Below, piece by piece: positions 5,879 through 20,002 of a stretch of DNA of 64,000 bases. The stretch's first letter is position 1; the number at the start of each line of letters is the position of its first letter. The stretch comes from Natronospira bacteriovora (GTDB lineage Bacteria; Pseudomonadota; Gammaproteobacteria; Natronospirales; Natronospiraceae). A program made the position numbers and the translations under genes. A model generated the notes under the pieces. The model had not been told where the DNA came from. It made no database searches and was given only the letters and a program-made list of their open reading frames with translations. The stretch covers positions 124,001 through 188,000 of the forward strand of contig NZ_JAVDDT010000006.1 in NCBI RefSeq assembly GCF_030848495.1, written 5' to 3'.

Positions 5879-6811
5879 TCAAGTCCTGCGGCGGGAAGCG
5901 ATCGGCCGGGGCTTGTGGGCATCCAGGTGCTCGGCCAGCTTGCGCAGCCCGGCGTCAACGTCATCGCCCAGCATGATGGCACCCATGGCGCGGATTTCCT
6001 CGGCCACCTGGGCGGGGCCCACACCGCCAACGAAAACCGGCACCCTGGCGGCCGACACCACCTCGGGCAGGCGATCCTGCAGGGTTCGGGCGGAGGGCTT
6101 GACCGAGCCTGACAGCACGATGGCGTCGGCACGCGCCTGGGTCACGGCCTGGGGCAGTTCCTCCAGCGGCATGTTCGCCCCCAGCAGCACGATGTCGAAG
6201 CCACGGCTGCTGGCGGCCAGGGCCACCAGGAGCAGGCCGATCTCGTGATACTCATCCGGCAGACAGGCCATCAGAAGGCGGGCACCCCGCACCTGCTTGG
6301 GGCGATGATGGAAACGGGCACCCAGCTTGTTGCGAAGATAACAGCCAAAGAAATGCTCCTCGGCCACGCTGCCTTCCCCATTCTCCCATCGATCACCGAG
6401 ATCCCTGAGCAGGGGCACGATCATCTGGCGGGTCACCAGGCTGACCGGATAGAGCGCCAAAACCTCGTTGTAGGTTTCTTCCAGGCCAGACTCATCGAAG
6501 CGGGTGATGGCCAGCAGCATGCGCTTGCGGTAGACCTCCCAGTTGTCGTCGGGGCCCTGGGTATCGTCTTCGATTACCTCGTTCTCGAGGGCATTGCGCA
6601 CCTGGCCGATGGACATGCCCCGCTCCAGCAGGGTCAGCACGCGATGGATCATTTCGATGTCGTCGCGGCTGTATAGCCGGTGCCCCTTTGGTGTGCGCTT
6701 CGGCCGGATCAGCCCATAGCGTCGCTCCCAGGCCCGAAGGGTGACGGGATTGACCCCGGTGATCTGGGATACGGTGCGGATGGGAACCAATTCATTGCGG
6801 ACACTGACCAT
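5879..6811 (-). CDS. MerR-family regulator with cobalamin-binding domain (CarH/LitR-like photoreceptor)
   Basis: The protein has 310 residues. An N-terminal MerR winged helix (about 10-77, with VTLRAWERRYG and KGHRLYS) is followed by a four-helix cap and a Rossmann-type B12-binding domain (about 175-295). The cap carries the Wx9EH motif (Trp142, Glu152-His153) and the B12 domain carries ExHxxG (Glu187, His189, Gly192). Both are hallmarks of CarH/LitR regulators, which use adenosylcobalamin as a light sensor and repress DNA in the dark. In Thermus CarH the residue after the Trp is the upper axial His; here it is Glu143. The downstream HAD gene is divergent, and an operon of known LitR-regulon gene types follows. 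Autoregulation is suggested by ACA repeats 11 bp apart in its promoter. Confidence 0.9.
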   Translation of the reverse strand: MVSVRNELVPIRTVSQITGVNPVTLRAWERRYGLIRPKRTPKGHRLYSRDDIEMIHRVLTLLERGMSIGQVRNALENEVIEDDTQGPDDNWEVYRKRMLLAITRFDESGLEETYNEVLALYPVSLVTRQMIVPLLRDLGDRWENGEGSVAEEHFFGCYLRNKLGARFHHRPKQVRGARLLMACLPDEYHEIGLLLVALAASSRGFDIVLLGANMPLEELPQAVTQARADAIVLSGSVKPSARTLQDRLPEVVSAARVPVFVGGVGPAQVAEEIRAMGAIMLGDDVDAGLRKLAEHLDAHKPRPIASRRRT

Positions 6812-6872
6812 GGCGATTTCTGCCCCCTGGGGCCACCCTTGCGGCGGCTCTGGTGGAAAATTGCATCTTTAT

Positions 6873-6889
6873 TATACATTCCCGATACA
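6873..6889 (-). promoter_or_regulatory. Candidate CarH/LitR-type operator in the regulator's own promoter
   Basis: On the plus strand TATACA (6873-6878) and GATACA (6884-6889) place their ACA cores exactly 11 bases apart. CarH proteins are known to bind direct repeats of about 11 bp with a TnnACA-like core. On the minus strand the first repeat overlaps a TATAAT-type -10 box, about 60 bases before the regulator's start codon. The second repeat deviates at the T position. Confidence 0.5.
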
Positions 6890-6933
6890 TCGGGAGGTGC
6901 TTTCAGCTGACCTTTGATCCGGATTCCGGCCCT

Positions 6934-6964
6934 TTGAGGGATTCAGGCGGCCTTCATTTATAAT
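6934..6964 (+). promoter_or_regulatory. Candidate promoter of the HAD hydrolase gene
   Basis: A perfect TATAAT (6959-6964) precedes the HAD start by about 60 bases. The nearest -35-like hexamer, TTGAGG (6934-6939), leaves a 19-base spacer, the long spacing typical of promoters activated by MerR proteins. This is by eye only. Confidence 0.35.
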
Positions 6965-7026
6965 ACCGCCCCGCATTTCGCTCCCTGGGGCCGCCGGGCC
7001 CACAGGCAGCCCGTCAACGGATTGTC

Positions 7027-7710
7027 ATGTCACTCATACGCGCCATCACCTTCGATCTCGACGACACGCTCTGGCCGGTGGCGCCCGTCATTGATTCAGC
7101 GGACATGGCGGTTCACCGCTGGTTCCGAGAGAACGCCCCGGCCGTGGCACGGCGTTTCCATGTGGACGATCTGCGTCGGCTGCGCGTCGACACCGGTCTG
7201 GCTCACCCGGAGTTGGCCCACGATCTCAGCCGTCTGCGCCGGCTCTCCCTCCAGCGGGCCTGCCGGGAGGCCGGCGTGGACGAGGCTCTGGCCGAGCCGG
7301 CCTTCCAGGCCTTCTTCTCGCATCGTCAGCGAGTCACTCTGTTCCCGGGTGCGCGATCGACCCTTGAGTCCTTGTCCAGTCGCTACCCCCTGGCCGCCCT
7401 GAGCAACGGCAATGCGGACATCAGCCGGACCGGGCTGGACGGCGTCTTCCGTTTCTCCCTCTCCGCCATCGAGGTGGGGGCAGCGAAACCCGATCCACGC
7501 ATGTTCGAGGAAGCCGCGCGGCGTCTCGAGCTCCGTCCCGCAGAGATAATGCATGTGGGTGATGACCCGCTCAGGGATGTGGCCGGTGCTCTGGAGGCCG
7601 GGTGCCGGGCGGTTCTGCTTGACCGCAGCGGCCGCTACGCCCGCTTCGTCGAAGCGCCCGTGATCCGCTCGATCGAGGAGCTGCTCGACCAGCAGGCGCT
7701 GATGGAATGA
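7027..7710 (+). CDS. HAD-superfamily hydrolase (YigB-like phosphatase)
   Basis: A 227-residue cytoplasmic phosphatase of the HAD fold. Motif I is DLDDTLW near the N-terminus (nucleophile Asp), motif II is the SNGN segment, motif III the Lys of KPDP, and motif IV is HVGDDPLRDV. Length and motifs match the YigB group, which dephosphorylates FMN and small sugar phosphates; the substrate here is not determined by sequence. It is divergent from the MerR/B12 regulator and its stop codon directly abuts the remnant of the convergent operon. The gene itself looks intact, with a normal C-terminus. Confidence 0.85.
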   Translation: MSLIRAITFDLDDTLWPVAPVIDSADMAVHRWFRENAPAVARRFHVDDLRRLRVDTGLAHPELAHDLSRLRRLSLQRACREAGVDEALAEPAFQAFFSHRQRVTLFPGARSTLESLSSRYPLAALSNGNADISRTGLDGVFRFSLSAIEVGAAKPDPRMFEEAARRLELRPAEIMHVGDDPLRDVAGALEAGCRAVLLDRSGRYARFVEAPVIRSIEELLDQQALME

Positions 7711-7782
7711 TTCCTGTGCCGGCAGCGAGGTGGCGGTCAGGCCGGCGAACAGGGCAAGAATGATCGGGAATCGGGCGTTCAT
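7711..7782 (-). pseudogene. Remnant of a secreted-protein gene: intact RBS and signal peptide, body lost
   Basis: The MFS carrier gene overlaps an ATG at 7782 by four bases (ATGA), with GGGAGG six bases upstream. The next 24 codons encode a convincing signal peptide (MNARFPIILALFAG, cleavage near SLPA-QE). The frame then runs straight into the antisense of the HAD gene and stays open to base 7096. The signal peptide ends just where the HAD stop codon begins, so the mature part appears deleted. In related light-regulated operons the gene after cfa often encodes a small exported chalcone-isomerase-like or DUF3833 protein; which was lost here is a guess. If still translated, the product would be a 228-residue chimera. 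Confidence 0.6.
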
Positions 7783-9119
7783 GCGGCACCTCCCAGCTGA
7801 CGCTGATGTTCCGCGATGGTGGTCTGCAGGCGGGCCTGTCGCTGCTGATCGAGCGGGAACCGCCAGACCAGGGGAATGACGGCCAGCTTGGCGGCAACCG
7901 GGGCGGCGCCGTACAGCAGGGACAGGGTCAGCAGGCTACCCTGGGCGTTCTGTCCGCCGGATTCGAATCCGGCCAGGTCAAGAACGGGGAAGGCGATCCC
8001 CACGGCCAGTGCCCAGGCAAACTTGGTTGCCATGTTCCAGAGCCCGAAGTAGAGGCCGGCCCGTCCACCGCCACCCCGCGCACTGTCCTCATCCACCACG
8101 TCAGCCTGCATGGAGGCCGGAATGGCCTGATCCACGCCAAGACTGAAACCGGTGAGAATGGTAATCAGCAGGAACCAGTGGAAATCCCCCTCTCCGAGCA
8201 GCGGCACGAAGGCGAAGATGAGGGCGGCCCAGGCCATGGAGACGGCCCAGATACGGTGCTTGCCGAAACGTCGGGAGGCCCTGAGCCAAAAGGGCAATGC
8301 CACCACGGCCGAGAGGAAATAGACAATCAGCAGCAGACCAATCCGGTCGCCGGCACCGAGCACTTCCGTGGCAAAGAGAATGAAAAGGCTGGCCGGCAGG
8401 GCGTTGGCCATTCCGTTGACCAGATAGGCCAGCAACAACCGCCGGAAGGGACGATTTTCCGCGAGCAGGCGCAGGCCCTCCCCCCAGGGCACCAGCTTCC
8501 TCGCCGGGCGTGGCGGCTCCTGCACCCGCCACAACAGGATCAGCAATGCCAATGGCAGCAGCATCACCATGGCCGCCGCCAGGACCCGCAGGGCATCTCC
8601 CCGGGCCGCACCCATCTCTTCCATGGCCCCGGGGACGATGACCGCCGCCAGGGTACCCACCACCACGAAGCCCTCCCGGAAGACCGTGATGCGGGATCGC
8701 TGATGGTAGTCCCCCGACAGCTCGGCCCCCATGGCCACGTAGGGCAGCTGGATCATGGTCCAGCCCAGATAGGCCACCAGGGACCACAGCAGCAAATGGG
8801 ATGCGCCCGCCCCGGACGGGGGCACCATCAACAACCAGACACCCAGCATGAACAACGGTGCACCGGCCACCATCCAGGGCTTGCGGCGGCCCCAGCGGCT
8901 GCCGCGATAGTCGGTGAGACTGCCCACCAGTGGGTCGGTGACCACGTCCCAGATGCGCGCAATCAGCAGCACCAGCCCCACGACCCCGAGAGGGAGACCC
9001 AGTGACTCGTGATAGAAGGCCGGCAGGAAGATATACAGGGGCAGGCCAACCGCGGCCAGAGGCAGACCGGGCAAACCATAGGCCAGCAGACGGCCGCTGC
9101 CTGGACGATCAGTCTGCAT
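7779..9119 (-). CDS. MFS_2 (GPH-type) cation-coupled transporter
   Basis: A 446-residue membrane protein with about 12 hydrophobic segments. The N-terminal loop motif RIWDVVTDPLVGSLTDYRG and the following RWGRRKPW are diagnostic of the glycoside-pentoside-hexuronide/MFS_2 family, which symports small solutes or lipids with cations. The ATG at 9119 overlaps the cfa stop by 11 bases, indicating translational coupling; a longer upstream frame only shadows cfa. Carriers of this family accompany cfa/DUF1365 genes in light-regulated operons, so a lipid-related substrate is plausible but unproven. The four-base overlap with the remnant downstream shows that the operon once had another gene. Confidence 0.85.
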   Translation of the reverse strand: MQTDRPGSGRLLAYGLPGLPLAAVGLPLYIFLPAFYHESLGLPLGVVGLVLLIARIWDVVTDPLVGSLTDYRGSRWGRRKPWMVAGAPLFMLGVWLLMVPPSGAGASHLLLWSLVAYLGWTMIQLPYVAMGAELSGDYHQRSRITVFREGFVVVGTLAAVIVPGAMEEMGAARGDALRVLAAAMVMLLPLALLILLWRVQEPPRPARKLVPWGEGLRLLAENRPFRRLLLAYLVNGMANALPASLFILFATEVLGAGDRIGLLLIVYFLSAVVALPFWLRASRRFGKHRIWAVSMAWAALIFAFVPLLGEGDFHWFLLITILTGFSLGVDQAIPASMQADVVDEDSARGGGGRAGLYFGLWNMATKFAWALAVGIAFPVLDLAGFESGGQNAQGSLLTLSLLYGAAPVAAKLAVIPLVWRFPLDQQRQARLQTTIAEHQRQLGGAA

Positions 9120-10335
9120 CGTCGTGTCCGAGAACGGTCTGCAGGAGGTTGATGCGGCCGCTCTGGAAGCCGGCCTCGCAATAGGCCAGATAGTATTCCC
9201 ACATGCGCTGGAAGCGGGCATCGAACCCCTGTGCCCGAATGTCGGCTTCCACGGACCGGAAGCGGCGTGCCCAGGCGTTCAGGGTGCAGGCGTAGTCCAG
9301 GCCGTGGAACTCGCTTTTGAGCGCCTTGAGGCCGGCCCGCTGATACTGCTCGTCCAGGGCCGAGGGTGAGGGCAATACGCCGCCCGGAAAGATGTAGCGG
9401 CGGATGAAGTCGATGTCCCGTCGGTAGCGTTCGAAGTAGCGGTCATCAATGGTGATGACCTGGAGAACGGCGCGACCGCCCGGCCGCAGGCGTCGGCGCA
9501 GGGTGTCGAAATAGACCGGCCAGTAGGCCTCGCCCACGGCCTCGAACATTTCGATGGACACGATGTGATCGAATTGCTCTTCGATGTCGCGGTAGTCCTG
9601 GAAGCGAAAGGAAACCCGATCTTCCACGCCGGCGTCCCGTGCCCGTTGCCGTGCCAGGGCAAGCTGCTCACGGGACACGGTGACCCCCGTCACCCGACAG
9701 CCCAGGGTCTGGGCGGCACGAATGGCGAAGCCGCCCCAGCCGCAACCGATTTCCAGAATGTGATCGCCGGGCAGGGCCCCGGTCATGGCCAGCAGGTGAT
9801 CGTATTTGGCCAGCTGGGCCTGCTCCAGATCCTGCACGTCTTCCTCGAAGCGGGCAGAGGAGTAGGTCATGCTGGGATCGAGCCAGAGGCGGTAGAAGTC
9901 ATTGCCCAGGTCATAGTGATGGGCAATGTTGCGCTGACTGCCGATGCGGTTGTTGCGGCGCACGAAGCGCTGATGCAGCGCCTGCAACCAGCGCAGCAGG
10001 GCACGGCCCCGTTCCAGTGACTCGAAATGATCGAGGTTGCGATCCAGACAGGCCAGCAGACTGCCGAGGTCAGGTGTACTCCACTCACCCGCCATGTAGG
10101 CCTCGGCAAAGCCCAGGTCTCCCCGGGACAGCAGACGGCGAAACAGATGGCGATCGTTGATCTGCAACACCCCCGTCGGCCCCGATTCCGGCCCCGAAAA
10201 CAGGCGACCGCCCTGCCCGGGCAGATGAATTTCCAGGGCACCGTACTGGATGCGACGGGCGGCGCGAAACAGCAGCGTCTCGGCCAGACCGGGGCGGCCG
10301 GTGCGCTTCAGTGAGAGGGGTCGTTCTGCGGACAT
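9109..10335 (-). CDS. cfa: Cyclopropane-fatty-acid-phospholipid synthase family methyltransferase
   Basis: The protein transfers the methyl group of S-adenosylmethionine to double bonds of membrane phospholipid acyl chains, at the inner face of the membrane. It has 408 residues. The N-terminal lipid-binding part ends in NIAHHYDLGNDFY. The SAM motif is LEIGCGWGGFA, followed by GVTVSREQ and the SIEMFEAVG segment typical of CFA synthases. The C-terminal part has FIRRYIFPGG. The ATG at 10335 has AAGGAGG about 10 bases upstream and overlaps the DUF1365 gene by 28 bases. Its position in a FAD oxidoreductase/DUF1365/cfa series marks it as the light-regulon type of Cfa rather than a stationary-phase gene. 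Confidence 0.92.
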   Translation of the reverse strand: MSAERPLSLKRTGRPGLAETLLFRAARRIQYGALEIHLPGQGGRLFSGPESGPTGVLQINDRHLFRRLLSRGDLGFAEAYMAGEWSTPDLGSLLACLDRNLDHFESLERGRALLRWLQALHQRFVRRNNRIGSQRNIAHHYDLGNDFYRLWLDPSMTYSSARFEEDVQDLEQAQLAKYDHLLAMTGALPGDHILEIGCGWGGFAIRAAQTLGCRVTGVTVSREQLALARQRARDAGVEDRVSFRFQDYRDIEEQFDHIVSIEMFEAVGEAYWPVYFDTLRRRLRPGGRAVLQVITIDDRYFERYRRDIDFIRRYIFPGGVLPSPSALDEQYQRAGLKALKSEFHGLDYACTLNAWARRFRSVEADIRAQGFDARFQRMWEYYLAYCEAGFQSGRINLLQTVLGHDDAD

Positions 10336-11117
10336 GTGACCGTCGCCTCCTTCGTCGGGGGAGCAGGCTTGCGATGAAAGGGCACACCCCTCAGCCACAG
10401 CTTGAGGGCATGCCAGTGAATCAGGGTGATGATGCGGATGCCCAGGGGCGGCAGGCGCAGGGCCAGGCGAAGCAGCGTGCGGTCACTGAGTTCGCGACGC
10501 CGGCCCGACCAGGTGGCCAGCATGTGGGGCTGGCCGCCGTCCACCGGAGGGACGCCACCAAAGAACTCTTCCACCCGCACCAGCAGCTGCTCATCGGGCT
10601 CGCGCAGGCGAAAGCAGTAACGGGCATCGGGACCGATGAAGGGGGATACGTGGAAGGCCTTGTCCGCCCACCAGGCCCGTGGCCAGTTCACCTGACCGTC
10701 GCTTACGGGAATCAGGTAATGGTGTTTTTCACCGAAGGTATTGCGCACTTCGAGAATGACCGCCATGAGCTCGCCATCACGGCGATGGCAGTACCACGCG
10801 GAGAGGGGATTGAAACCGTAGCCCAGCACCCGGGGGAAACACAGGATGCGCATGGAACCGCCGTCCGGTACCAGGCCGGACTGGCGCAGCAGGCCTTCGG
10901 CCCACTGGCGCAGATCGCTACCGTCGCGGGGGCCGAAATCCCGGTCATGGAAGCTGACCAGATTGAAGCGGTTGCGGGAAAACAGGCGCAGACGGCCGGC
11001 GAGCTCGTCCAGCTCGTCGATGTCCAGCAGCAGACTGAAGACGCGATAGCGGAAACGATAGAACCGCGGCGTCTGCCGCCGATGCATCACCTGGCAATCG
11101 TAAGTGGCTGACCGCAT
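10308..11117 (-). CDS. DUF1365 protein
   Basis: A 269-residue soluble protein of the DUF1365 family. Recognisable segments are RRQTPRFYRFRYRVF at the start, the FSLLLDIDEL region, GYGFNPLSAWYC and EVRNTFGEKHHYL. The molecular function is unknown. It is almost always found between an FAD-dependent oxidoreductase and a Cfa-type methyltransferase, and is therefore thought to act in a membrane-lipid modification pathway. The ATG at 11117 overlaps the upstream stop codon region, and the 3' end overlaps cfa, so all genes here are tightly coupled. Confidence 0.9.
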   Translation of the reverse strand: MRSATYDCQVMHRRQTPRFYRFRYRVFSLLLDIDELDELAGRLRLFSRNRFNLVSFHDRDFGPRDGSDLRQWAEGLLRQSGLVPDGGSMRILCFPRVLGYGFNPLSAWYCHRRDGELMAVILEVRNTFGEKHHYLIPVSDGQVNWPRAWWADKAFHVSPFIGPDARYCFRLREPDEQLLVRVEEFFGGVPPVDGGQPHMLATWSGRRRELSDRTLLRLALRLPPLGIRIITLIHWHALKLWLRGVPFHRKPAPPTKEATVTCPQNDPSH

Positions 11118-11120
11118 CAA

Positions 11121-12473
11121 TCAGCCCTCCTCCATGAGCGCCTCAACGGCTGGCGCAGGGGGCGCCAGCCGCCGGCGGGAATCAGCGACCCCCTGCTGCC
11201 AGGGGGCGTGCACACCCATGGCATTACAGACGTTCACGGCCGAGCGCAGCCCGTCCTCGTGAAAACCATAGGCCGTCCATGCACCACAGAACCATAGTCC
11301 ACGTTGGCCCTGAATGGCAGGCAGATGTTCCTGGGCGCGCAGGGCCGACAGATCGAAAACCGGATGCTCATAATCCACGCAATGCCAGGTGACCGCGGGA
11401 TCGGGTCGCTGCGCCGGATTCAGAGTGACGAAATAGTTCCGCTCCGAGGCCAGCGGTTGCAGACGGTTCATCCAGTAGGACACCGCCACCCGGCTATCCT
11501 CCCGGGTTCTGCGATCCGCCAGGTAGTTCCAGGAGGCCCACACTCGGCGACGTCGTGGCATCAGGCGGGAATCGCTGTGCAACCAGGCACGGTTGGCCTG
11601 GAAGCGGAAGGCGGAGAGCACGCGGCGCTCCTGTTCGTCGGCATCCTCGAGCAGAGCCAGGGACTGATCCGCGTGGCTCGCCAGCACCACCTGCTCGTAT
11701 TCCGCCTCGTGGCCGTTGCTGTCCCGAACCAGGACGCCGGCGGGCGTGCGCCGAATGCCCTCCACGCCGATGCCGGCGATGGCGCGGTCACCCAGCGGCT
11801 CGATCAGACGCCGGACATACTCCCGGCCGCCCCCCGTGACCGTTCGCCACTGGGGCCGTTCGTTGACCTGAAGCAGGCCGTGGTTGCGGAAGAAGCGCAG
11901 GAAACTGATGGCCGGAAAATCCAGGATTCTGGCCATGGGCGCCGACCAGATCGCGGCCGCCATGGGCAGCAGATAGCGCTCACTCAGTTCCATTCCGAAA
12001 CCATGGTGATGGAGAAACTGGCCCAGTGTGAGGGCTTGCTCACCGCCACCCCGCTTCCCGGCCTGCTGATCGAGCCAGTCGATGGCTCGCTGATTGAATT
12101 TCAGGATGTCGGCCAGCATTCGCCAGTGGCTGGGGCGGAACAGGTTGGCGGGCTGGGCGAACAGCTTGAGCAAGTTGTCACCGGCGTACTCGATCTCACC
12201 CTCGCCCAGGGAGGCGGCGAAGGACATGTCGCTTTCCGCCGAGGCCACGCCGAGGTGACGGAACAGGGACGACAGATGCGGGTAATTGAGGTCATTGAAT
12301 ACGATGAAACCGGTATCCACCGGCACATGGCGATCGCCCTCGCGGACCGTCACCGTATTGGTGTGGCCCCCGAAACGAGTCGCGGATTCATACAGCACCA
12401 CCTCGTGCTCGGCCGACAACAACCAGGCCGCACCCAGACCGGAGATTCCCGAACCCACCACCGCAATACGCAT
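11121..12473 (-). CDS. FAD-dependent amine-oxidase-like oxidoreductase (NAD/FAD-binding protein)
   Basis: A 450-residue flavoprotein. The dinucleotide-binding motif VVGSGISGLGAAWLL lies at the extreme N-terminus, followed by an acidic/arginine ribose-contact segment (YESATRFGGHTNTV) that is typical of the amine oxidase/phytoene-desaturase fold. A C-terminal FAD motif occurs in GLWFCGAWTAYGFHEDGL. The start is the ATG preceded by GGGAAGG; the upstream extension of the frame covers the promoter. It heads the DUF1365/cfa/MFS operon. In light-regulated clusters this enzyme is presumed to desaturate or oxidise acyl or isoprenoid chains. The substrate is not known. Confidence 0.88.
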   Translation of the reverse strand: MRIAVVGSGISGLGAAWLLSAEHEVVLYESATRFGGHTNTVTVREGDRHVPVDTGFIVFNDLNYPHLSSLFRHLGVASAESDMSFAASLGEGEIEYAGDNLLKLFAQPANLFRPSHWRMLADILKFNQRAIDWLDQQAGKRGGGEQALTLGQFLHHHGFGMELSERYLLPMAAAIWSAPMARILDFPAISFLRFFRNHGLLQVNERPQWRTVTGGGREYVRRLIEPLGDRAIAGIGVEGIRRTPAGVLVRDSNGHEAEYEQVVLASHADQSLALLEDADEQERRVLSAFRFQANRAWLHSDSRLMPRRRRVWASWNYLADRRTREDSRVAVSYWMNRLQPLASERNYFVTLNPAQRPDPAVTWHCVDYEHPVFDLSALRAQEHLPAIQGQRGLWFCGAWTAYGFHEDGLRSAVNVCNAMGVHAPWQQGVADSRRRLAPPAPAVEALMEEG

Positions 12474-12519
12474 TCCGGACCTTCCCTTCGATAAAAATTG
12501 GCTGCCTGCTGGCAGTCCG

Positions 12520-12556
12520 TGTACAGGAAGTATAATCTTTGTATAGGTAAAGTCCA
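12520..12556 (-). promoter_or_regulatory. Candidate light-regulated promoter with phased TnnACA repeats
   Basis: On the minus strand TGGACT (12551-12556) and TATACT (12529-12534) form a promoter with a 16-base spacer. Three copies of a TnnAC(A/T) motif, TATACA, TTATACT-type and TGTACA, overlap it at spacings of 11 and 9 bases. The layout resembles CarH operators and matches the repeat pair in the regulator's own promoter. It would control the FAD oxidoreductase-DUF1365-cfa-MFS operon. Confidence 0.55.
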
Positions 12557-12619
12557 GAAAAGTTTTACGCCAGGCAGGGTGGAAGTGTGCAGGGGCCGAC
12601 AGCCGGGCACACTGGCACA

Positions 12620-12648
12620 CCGGCGGCTGACACGCCGTCAGCCGCCGG
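12620..12648. terminator. Perfect GC-rich hairpin between tesA and the FAD operon promoter
   Basis: A 12-base perfect stem (CCGGCGGCTGAC with GTCAGCCGCCGG) closes a five-base loop. It lies 25 bases after the tesA stop codon. No T run follows on either strand, so it is either a Rho-dependent or weak end signal for tesA or a transcript-stabilising hairpin. Confidence 0.5.
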
Positions 12649-12672
12649 TCGACAGAGGAGGAAGAAATGGGT

Positions 12673-13305
12673 TCAGTTGGTTTCGAGAAGGCCTTCGATG
12701 GCGGGCCAGAGATTGTCCAGGATCAGGGGCTGCGCTTCCGCCGTGGGGTGGATGCCGTCCGCCTGCATGAGGTTTTCCCGCTCGGCGACCCCTTCGAGAA
12801 TGCGGGGCACCAGGACCACGCCCGTGTCCGCGGCGACGGTCCGGTACATGTCGGCGAAGGCCTCGGTAAAGCGGCGACCGTAATTGGGCGGCATGCGCAC
12901 CCCCACCAGCAGCACCCGGGCCCCGGCGGCCTGGCTGGCGGCAATCATCTGGCGCAGGTTGGCGGCGGTTTCCTCCACCGGCAGCCCCCGCAGGCCGTCG
13001 TTGCCACCGAGCTGGATGATGACGAGGGAGGGCTCATGACGCTCGAGGGCGGCCGCAATGCGTGCGCGTCCGCTGCGGGTGGTGTCGCCGCTGATGGCGG
13101 CATTGACCACGCCACGGGATTCACCGCGCTCGTCCAGGCGGGCCTCCAGCAGATTGACCCAGCCCTGGGCACGGTCAAAGCCGTAATCGGCGCTGAGGCT
13201 GTCGCCAATCACCAGAATGGGCCCGGGACTGGTATCTTGCTCAGCCTGAACGCTGAGCGCACAAAGCAGCAGGAGCAGGCAGATGAATGAGGCAGCACGT
13301 AACAC
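12673..13305 (-). CDS. tesA: Multifunctional acyl-CoA thioesterase I / protease I / lysophospholipase L1
   Basis: A 210-residue periplasmic SGNH hydrolase that cleaves acyl thioesters, arylesters and lysophospholipids. An N-terminal signal peptide (LRAASFICLLLLLCALSVQA) precedes block I GDSLS (nucleophile Ser), block II with the Gly in AISGDTT, block III GGNDGL and block V DGIHP (catalytic Asp and His). The GTG start has GGAG a few bases upstream. Its 5' end overlaps that of ybbA by 23 bases on the opposite strand, an organisation also seen in Escherichia coli. Confidence 0.93.
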   Translation of the reverse strand: MLRAASFICLLLLLCALSVQAEQDTSPGPILVIGDSLSADYGFDRAQGWVNLLEARLDERGESRGVVNAAISGDTTRSGRARIAAALERHEPSLVIIQLGGNDGLRGLPVEETAANLRQMIAASQAAGARVLLVGVRMPPNYGRRFTEAFADMYRTVAADTGVVLVPRILEGVAERENLMQADGIHPTAEAQPLILDNLWPAIEGLLETN

Positions 13306-17157: not shown

Positions 17158-18591
17158 TCAGCGCAGCTGCTTCGCCGCCGCCAGGGCGGCCGCGCGACTC
17201 TCCCGATAATCAACCACCGGCCGCGGATAATCCTTCCCCAGCCGGACACCCGCTGCCTGCAACAGTGACGCCTCCGCCTCATGGGGGGCGTGCAGTGCCT
17301 TGTCCGGAAGCCTGGCCAGCTCGGGCAGCCAGCGGCGGATATACGCCCCGTCGCCATCGAAACGCCGGGACTGGGTGAAGGGATTGAAGATACGGAAATA
17401 GGGCGCGGCATCGGCACCGCAGCCCGCCGACCACTGCCAGCCCATGGTGTTGTTGGCCAGATCCGCATCCACCAAGGTGTCCCAGAACCAGCGGGCACCC
17501 GCCAGCCAGGGGGCACGGATGTTCTTCACCAGCAGGGAAGCAGCGACCATCCTCACCCGATTGTGCATAAAGCCGCTGTGCCACAACTCCCGCATGCCGG
17601 CATCCACGATGGGATAACCGGTCTCGCCCCGCTGCCAGGCACGCAGCAGCGGCTGGTGATCCTCCCGCCAGGGGAAATCGGCCCAGCGCTCGTATAGCGG
17701 TGCCTCGGGCGTGTGCGGAAACTCGAACAGGACGTGATGGGCGAATTCTCGCCAGACCAGCTCGCGAAGCCAGGCTTCGCCACCCTGAGTCAGGGCCGCC
17801 TGGGCCGCCAGGCGTTCACTGACCCGTTGCCAGGCCTGAAAGGGGCTGAGTTCGCCGTGATGGAGATGGGGCGAGAGTCGCGAAATGCCATCCACGGCGG
17901 GCCGGTCGCGGTCTTCGTGATAGCTCGACAGGCCGCGATCCAGAAAACGGGTGAGTGCCGCCTCGGCACCGGCCTCTCCCGGCTGCCAGCAGGACGCCAG
18001 CCTGGGATACCAGCGAACGGCGGGCAACAACCCCAGGGCCTGGAGGGACTCGCTGCGGGGCCAATTCGTGGCCGGCCGCAGGGTTCCGGGTTTGCGTCGA
18101 GGTGAACGCGGCGAACCCCGCTTGCCGAAGGCCCGCCAGAAGGGCGTGAACACCCGATAGGGCTCACCCTTGCCAGTACGCATCGCCCAGGGCTCCACCA
18201 GCAGGGCCGCCTGAAAGCTGCGCGCCTCATGCCCCTCTGCCCGCAACCACTGTTTGATAGACCGGTCTCGTTCCACCAGGGCGGGTTCGTACAGACGATT
18301 CCAGTACACGCCCTCGGCACCCGTCTCCGCGAGCAGATCCGCCAGCACTTCTCGGGTGGAGCCACGGCGCAGAATGAGCCGGCTGCCGGATTCGGCAAGC
18401 CGGTCCGCCAGCGAGGCCAGGCTCTCGTGCTGCCACCAGCGCGCGGCCTCGCCCGGCGCCCATTGCCCCTCTTCCTCCGGAGCATGGATAAAGACCGGAA
18501 TCACCGTCTCCGCCACATCCACCGCGGCGCGCAGCGCGGGATTGTCGCTCAGGCGCAGATCGCGGCGAAACCAGAGGATGAGGGTTTTCAT
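17158..18591 (-). CDS. phrB: Deoxyribodipyrimidine photolyase (class I cryptochrome/photolyase family)
   Basis: A 477-residue DNA repair flavoprotein that splits cyclobutane pyrimidine dimers with blue light. The N-terminal Rossmann domain begins LILWFRRDLRLSDNPAL and binds the antenna chromophore. The C-terminal FAD domain has the GYPIVDAGMRELWHSGFMHNR and WDTLVDADLANNTMGWQW blocks, which hold the FAD-binding and DNA-contact residues. The length is normal. In many light-regulated clusters phr sits beside the CarH/LitR gene; here it is about 11 kb away and I see no TnnACA repeats in the first 60 bases upstream. Its 5' flank runs into the hexanucleotide repeat block. Confidence 0.95.
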   Translation of the reverse strand: MKTLILWFRRDLRLSDNPALRAAVDVAETVIPVFIHAPEEEGQWAPGEAARWWQHESLASLADRLAESGSRLILRRGSTREVLADLLAETGAEGVYWNRLYEPALVERDRSIKQWLRAEGHEARSFQAALLVEPWAMRTGKGEPYRVFTPFWRAFGKRGSPRSPRRKPGTLRPATNWPRSESLQALGLLPAVRWYPRLASCWQPGEAGAEAALTRFLDRGLSSYHEDRDRPAVDGISRLSPHLHHGELSPFQAWQRVSERLAAQAALTQGGEAWLRELVWREFAHHVLFEFPHTPEAPLYERWADFPWREDHQPLLRAWQRGETGYPIVDAGMRELWHSGFMHNRVRMVAASLLVKNIRAPWLAGARWFWDTLVDADLANNTMGWQWSAGCGADAAPYFRIFNPFTQSRRFDGDGAYIRRWLPELARLPDKALHAPHEAEASLLQAAGVRLGKDYPRPVVDYRESRAAALAAAKQLR

Positions 18592-18628: not shown

Positions 18629-19029
<401 letters not shown>

Positions 19030-19701: not shown

Positions 19702-19732
19702 AGAACCTGCTGTTTGCGAGTGTTGTTTTTCT

Positions 19733-19824
19733 CGTAGTCGTAATCGTAGTCGTAGTCGTAATCGGCCTTTTCAGGCCCCGATAATGCCGATTACGATTAC
19801 GACTACGACTACGACTACGATTAG
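19733..19824. repeat. Hexanucleotide-armed inverted repeat after the DUF502 gene
   Basis: The left arm (19733-19765) consists of GTAGTC and GTAATC units ending in CGG. A loop of about 21 bases follows, then the right arm (19787-19824) of CCGATTAC, GATTAC and GACTAC units. The stem is over 30 bases and nearly perfect. It lies between convergent genes, like the element at 3902-3965, so a bidirectional terminator role is plausible. Confidence 0.88.
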
Positions 19825-19905: not shown

Positions 19906-19982
19906 TTGCTCCTTGCTCCTTGCTCCTTGCTCCTTGCTCCTTGCTCCTTGCTCCTTGCTCCTTGCTCCTTGCTCCTTGCTCC
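19906..19982. repeat. Heptanucleotide tandem repeat (TTGCTCC, 11 perfect copies)
   Basis: Eleven exact copies of TTGCTCC run head to tail, followed by a degenerate copy. It lies about 20 bases after the 3' end of the minus-strand dehydrogenase gene, in the 301-base gap that also holds the preceding hairpin. The seven-base period makes all frames open, but the resulting peptides are repeat artefacts. Confidence 0.95.
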
Positions 19983-20002
19983 TTAATCTTTGCTCCTGCC
20001 CT

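Follow-up and report, generated by a model that had tools for sequence, protein, structure and literature searches.

A ribosome-binding site and signal peptide at the tail of a furan-fatty-acid-type operon in Natronospira bacteriovora: a probable deletion remnant whose frame is fortuitously open antisense to a HAD hydrolase gene

The furan fatty acid genes of Rhodobacter sphaeroides, UfaM, UfaD, and UfaO (PMC7380195), are among the closest described counterparts of a minus-strand operon located in a 64,000-nucleotide stretch of the Natronospira bacteriovora genome (contig NZ_JAVDDT010000006.1, positions 124,001 to 188,000), referred to here as the window. The SAM methylase (UfaM) and DUF1365 (UfaO) families are represented in both systems, the likeness being one at family level; a term search of PMC7380195 gave no occurrence of "MFS". 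In the window, the operon comprises an FAD-dependent amine-oxidase-like gene (11121–12470; Pfam Amino_oxidase), a DUF1365 gene of the UfaO family (10308–11120; Pfam DUF1365; PMC7380195), a CFA-like SAM methyltransferase gene (9109–10398; Pfam CMAS), and an intact MFS_2 (GPH-type) transporter gene (7779–9119; Pfam MFS_2, profile positions 2–426 of 427), the last surviving gene of the operon. By analogy, the operon may make lipids of the furan fatty acid type. On the plus strand, it is faced by an intact, YigB-like HAD-family hydrolase gene (7027–7710), which matches Pfam Hydrolase over profile positions 1–191 of 191 and is represented in relatives by orthologues in the corresponding location; the best NCBIfam relative of the protein is the YigB model, with a score below that model's cut-off. 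A second known phenomenon to which the locus can be compared is that of the antisense shadow ORFs of GC-rich genomes, which owe the same in-register openness to the rarity of TTA, CTA, and TCA codons. Unlike those, the antisense frame described here is entered from a genuine start site that was probably inherited.

Two further genes are found near the operon: a MerR regulator with B12-binding domains (5879–6811; Pfam), an architecture that we take to be of the light-sensor type, and a putative photolyase-like gene (17158–18591). Their presence suggests light regulation. Beyond the photolyase-like gene lie two perfect hexanucleotide arrays, TGTCGT repeated 11.8 times (18734–18804) and ACGACA repeated 10.7 times (18966–19029), each the reverse complement of the other and about 160 bp apart, together with weaker 6-nt arrays (18883–18915, 19732–19764, and 19788–19820) and a 7-nt TTGCTCC array of 13 copies (19906–19997).

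Directly after the MFS gene, a minus-strand reading frame of 228 codons (7782–7096) begins with an ATG (7782–7780) that interlocks with the TGA of the MFS gene (7781–7779) as ATGA. This start/stop overlap (7779–7782, minus strand), which indicates coupling to the MFS gene, is common to a congeneric genome (G001) and to several gammaproteobacterial MFS-DUF3833 junctions. The Shine-Dalgarno sequence GGGAGGTG (7787–7794, minus strand) resides within the 3′-terminal part of the MFS gene, its GGAGG lying 6 nt 5′ of the ATG, and forms a duplex with the anti-Shine-Dalgarno sequence of −11.5 kcal/mol; of the window's 2217 ATGs, only 0.45% attain this value. Codons 1–24 (MNARFPIILALFAGLTATSLPAQE; 7711–7782, minus strand), that is, the start codon and the signal-peptide codons, span exactly the interval that separates the MFS stop (7779) from the HAD stop codon (7708–7710). 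The antisense continuation of the frame occupies 7096–7710 (minus strand): codon 25 overlaps the HAD stop codon, and the last 203 codons run antisense to the HAD gene and in register with it. An earlier note on this DNA had described a strong ribosome site and a signal peptide, coupled by ATGA to the MFS gene, with a frame that continues antisense through the intact HAD gene; both elements are present in the sequence as claimed, the antisense part being open for 203 codons.

The start site and signal peptide might be regarded as a chance product of non-coding DNA, and the shortness of the region as well as the lack of any homologue found would be in keeping with such an origin. We nevertheless consider it unlikely. 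When the occurrence of a GGAGG or AGGAG site was combined with a simple signal-peptide rule over the 5815 start codons of the window, 97 had a Shine-Dalgarno sequence, 48 a signal-peptide-like N-terminus, and 6 had both. The start at 7782 is one of these six; the roughly 5800 other start codons yield only five such sites, all of which, not individually checked, head ORFs of 84–660 codons. The ribosome site and signal peptide exceed chance. Further arguments against a non-coding origin are the gene-like GC content by codon position in the first ~25 codons (0.60/0.52/0.76), the Shine-Dalgarno sequence and ATGA common to G001, and the occurrence of an exported protein at that place in relatives.

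Relatives do possess a longer gene in the corresponding syntenic position, the loss of which the earlier note had supposed: in them, a DUF3833 lipoprotein gene follows the MFS gene. In a genome of the same order (G006), the locus reads TesA, FAD oxidoreductase, DUF1365, CFA, MFS, and DUF3833, followed by convergent HAD and by MerR-B12; in one of the same class (G020), MFS is followed by DUF3833 and Chalcone_3. In five surveyed gammaproteobacterial loci, the MFS gene and the DUF3833 gene have exactly 4 nt (ATGA) in common, and the surveyed DUF3833 N-termini are lipoprotein signals with a cysteine. The junction survey was drawn by DUF3833, so that the rates of MFS-DUF3833 adjacency are biased; the distant MFS relatives surveyed mostly occur in other gene contexts and are uninformative here. 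Closer to N. bacteriovora, the MFS gene of G001 (72% match to that of the window) overlaps the HAD gene by 8 nt, with no gene in between. Its end still reads GGGAGG...ATGA, with a duplex of −11.3 kcal/mol, although antisense HAD alone follows. The window and G001 thus each have a strong Shine-Dalgarno sequence plus ATGA at the MFS stop, and each site ranks within the top 0.6% of ATGs. The fact that these strong signals have been kept in two Natronospira species with no full gene behind them fits a coupled ancestral gene that was lost in both. In another congeneric genome (G002) and one of the same family (G003), MFS is absent and CFA directly precedes HAD. A search for MFS in further genomes of the order added none to the three already found. 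As MFS is kept in only one close relative, a longer ancestral gene within the genus is something that we infer rather than see. DUF3833 was found in none of the four genomes of the family that were searched, this search giving a single sub-threshold match (E 0.35), nor in a further search of the N. bacteriovora genome. Neither was the signal peptide of the remnant found in G001, G002, or G003; searches with the remnant DNA against its own genome and with the peptide against the family genomes returned only the query itself, besides short chance matches. Set against window 7027–13305, the relatives also display a stepwise erosion of the operon tail, with DUF3833 missing from the family, then MFS as well (G002 and G003), then the whole cassette, which is absent from a further genome of the order (G008).

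It therefore seems quite likely that the start site is what a deletion has left of a coupled gene, which encoded an exported protein and stood last in a furan-fatty-acid-type operon, and that the frame thereafter is open by accident. The ancestral operon would have run from amine oxidase through DUF1365, CFA methyltransferase, and MFS to this coupled gene. Nearly the whole of the last gene would then have gone in a 3′ deletion that reached as far as the 3′ terminus of convergent HAD. Its ribosome site and start codon would have been spared, together with ~24 codons of the signal peptide, whose frame now continues into HAD antisense. G001 would have kept no codons of the lost gene, the window species 24. 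The product of the remnant, if translated, would presumably be exported but useless.

The lost gene was most likely that of the DUF3833 lipoprotein (PF12915), which is favoured by its position alone, since the remnant carries no lipobox cysteine. DUF3833 genes share with the remnant the place directly after MFS, the ATGA overlap in several species, a hydrophobic export signal, and, in G006, the convergent HAD gene. Whereas start-site position and overlap agree, the remnant consists of 24 codons with no DUF3833 domain and a signal peptide too short to establish homology; the 228-residue product gives no Pfam match to PF12915, and its N-terminus lacks the cysteine present in the surveyed DUF3833 N-termini. 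If the gene was DUF3833, the deletion would have cut just before the lipobox, and the ..LFAG of the remnant could have preceded the cysteine. Titles and abstracts of the literature searched contained nothing on DUF3833 function. As a variant of the same deletion, the lost gene may, less probably, have coded for another exported protein such as Chalcone_3, whose type I signal peptide would then be what remains. In support of this assumption, the remnant resembles a type I signal (..SLPA/QE) and has no cysteine, and Chalcone_3 genes, themselves with type I-like signals, follow DUF3833 in many relatives, often with −4 overlaps. However, this variant requires a prior loss of DUF3833, Chalcone_3-type genes persist elsewhere in the genomes of N. 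bacteriovora and G001 (C2:80678 and C20:47106), and the remnant has no sequence match in the family genomes. In each of these two genomes, the off-operon Chalcone_3-type gene is located beside a similar membrane-protein ORF.

The openness of the antisense stretch is accounted for by codon usage. Its register with HAD means that no codons other than TTA, CTA, and TCA can give rise to stops, and it is open because these codons are rare in the genome: in twelve neighbouring genes, TTA accounts for 1 and CTA for 4 of 622 leucine codons, and TCA for 16 of 256 serine codons. When the HAD codons were resampled synonymously, an opening of 203 codons or more, counted from the 3′ end, was retained in 35% of trials (P = 0.35), and the longest in-register antisense runs in neighbouring genes extend from 108 to 534 codons. 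An opening of 203 codons is no more than expected by chance. In the orthologous HAD genes, stops interrupt the antisense frame at codon 56 (G001), codons 74 and 114 (G002), and codon 74 (G003), while the frame of the G008 orthologue is open throughout. The third codon positions of HAD, which serve as first positions in the antisense frame, are only 41–46% identical to those of relatives, as compared with 66–75% for positions 1 and 2.

These data bear on the opposite reading, in which the cell makes and uses an overprinted, exported protein of 228 residues, with the signal peptide serving to export the antisense-encoded chain. The strong Shine-Dalgarno sequence, ATGA coupling, signal peptide, and open frame would all suit such a protein. 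So would the result that a scan of 6800–8000 detected no operon-strand terminator between MFS and HAD, so that read-through transcription is possible. The scan detected no promoter either, and one terminator-like site within HAD occurs at chance rate. Moreover, the antisense amino-acid identity to G002 slightly exceeds a resampling null (0.357 vs 0.295; 1% of resamplings as high). The excess is absent, however, for G003, where 45% of resamplings match the observed identity, and weak for G001 (10%), and it is not taken as selection since the null ignores common ancestry. The openness expected from codon usage and the stops in all three closest relatives further argue against a protein, as does the lack of homologues, the 228-residue product (P0001) having no match in Pfam, NCBIfam, or PDB sequences. 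Its AF2 model is unstructured (mean pLDDT 33), which is weak evidence because the model was built from a single sequence with no alignment. Beyond the open frame, nothing was found in favour of an overprinted protein, and we regard its existence as highly improbable. More doubtful still is the idea that the deletion, by placing a ribosome site and an export signal before stop-free antisense, gave rise to a brand-new exported protein that is now made and on trial by selection. The earlier note had left the choice between a truncated gene and a recently formed overprinted secreted protein; the former is strengthened by the DUF3833 genes of relatives and the ribosome site and ATGA of G001, while the latter is not supported, in view of the expected openness, the relatives' stops, the missing database matches, and the low pLDDT.

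The preferred reading, a deletion remnant with a fortuitously open continuation, carries a caution for genome annotation, namely that a long antisense ORF in a GC-rich genome need not be a gene, even if a genuine ribosome site and a signal peptide lie at its start. A deletion can nonetheless, in principle, provide random antisense sequence with an export signal. For the operon itself, the locus would represent the erosion of an operon tail in small, in which the coupling signals outlive the gene that they once served.
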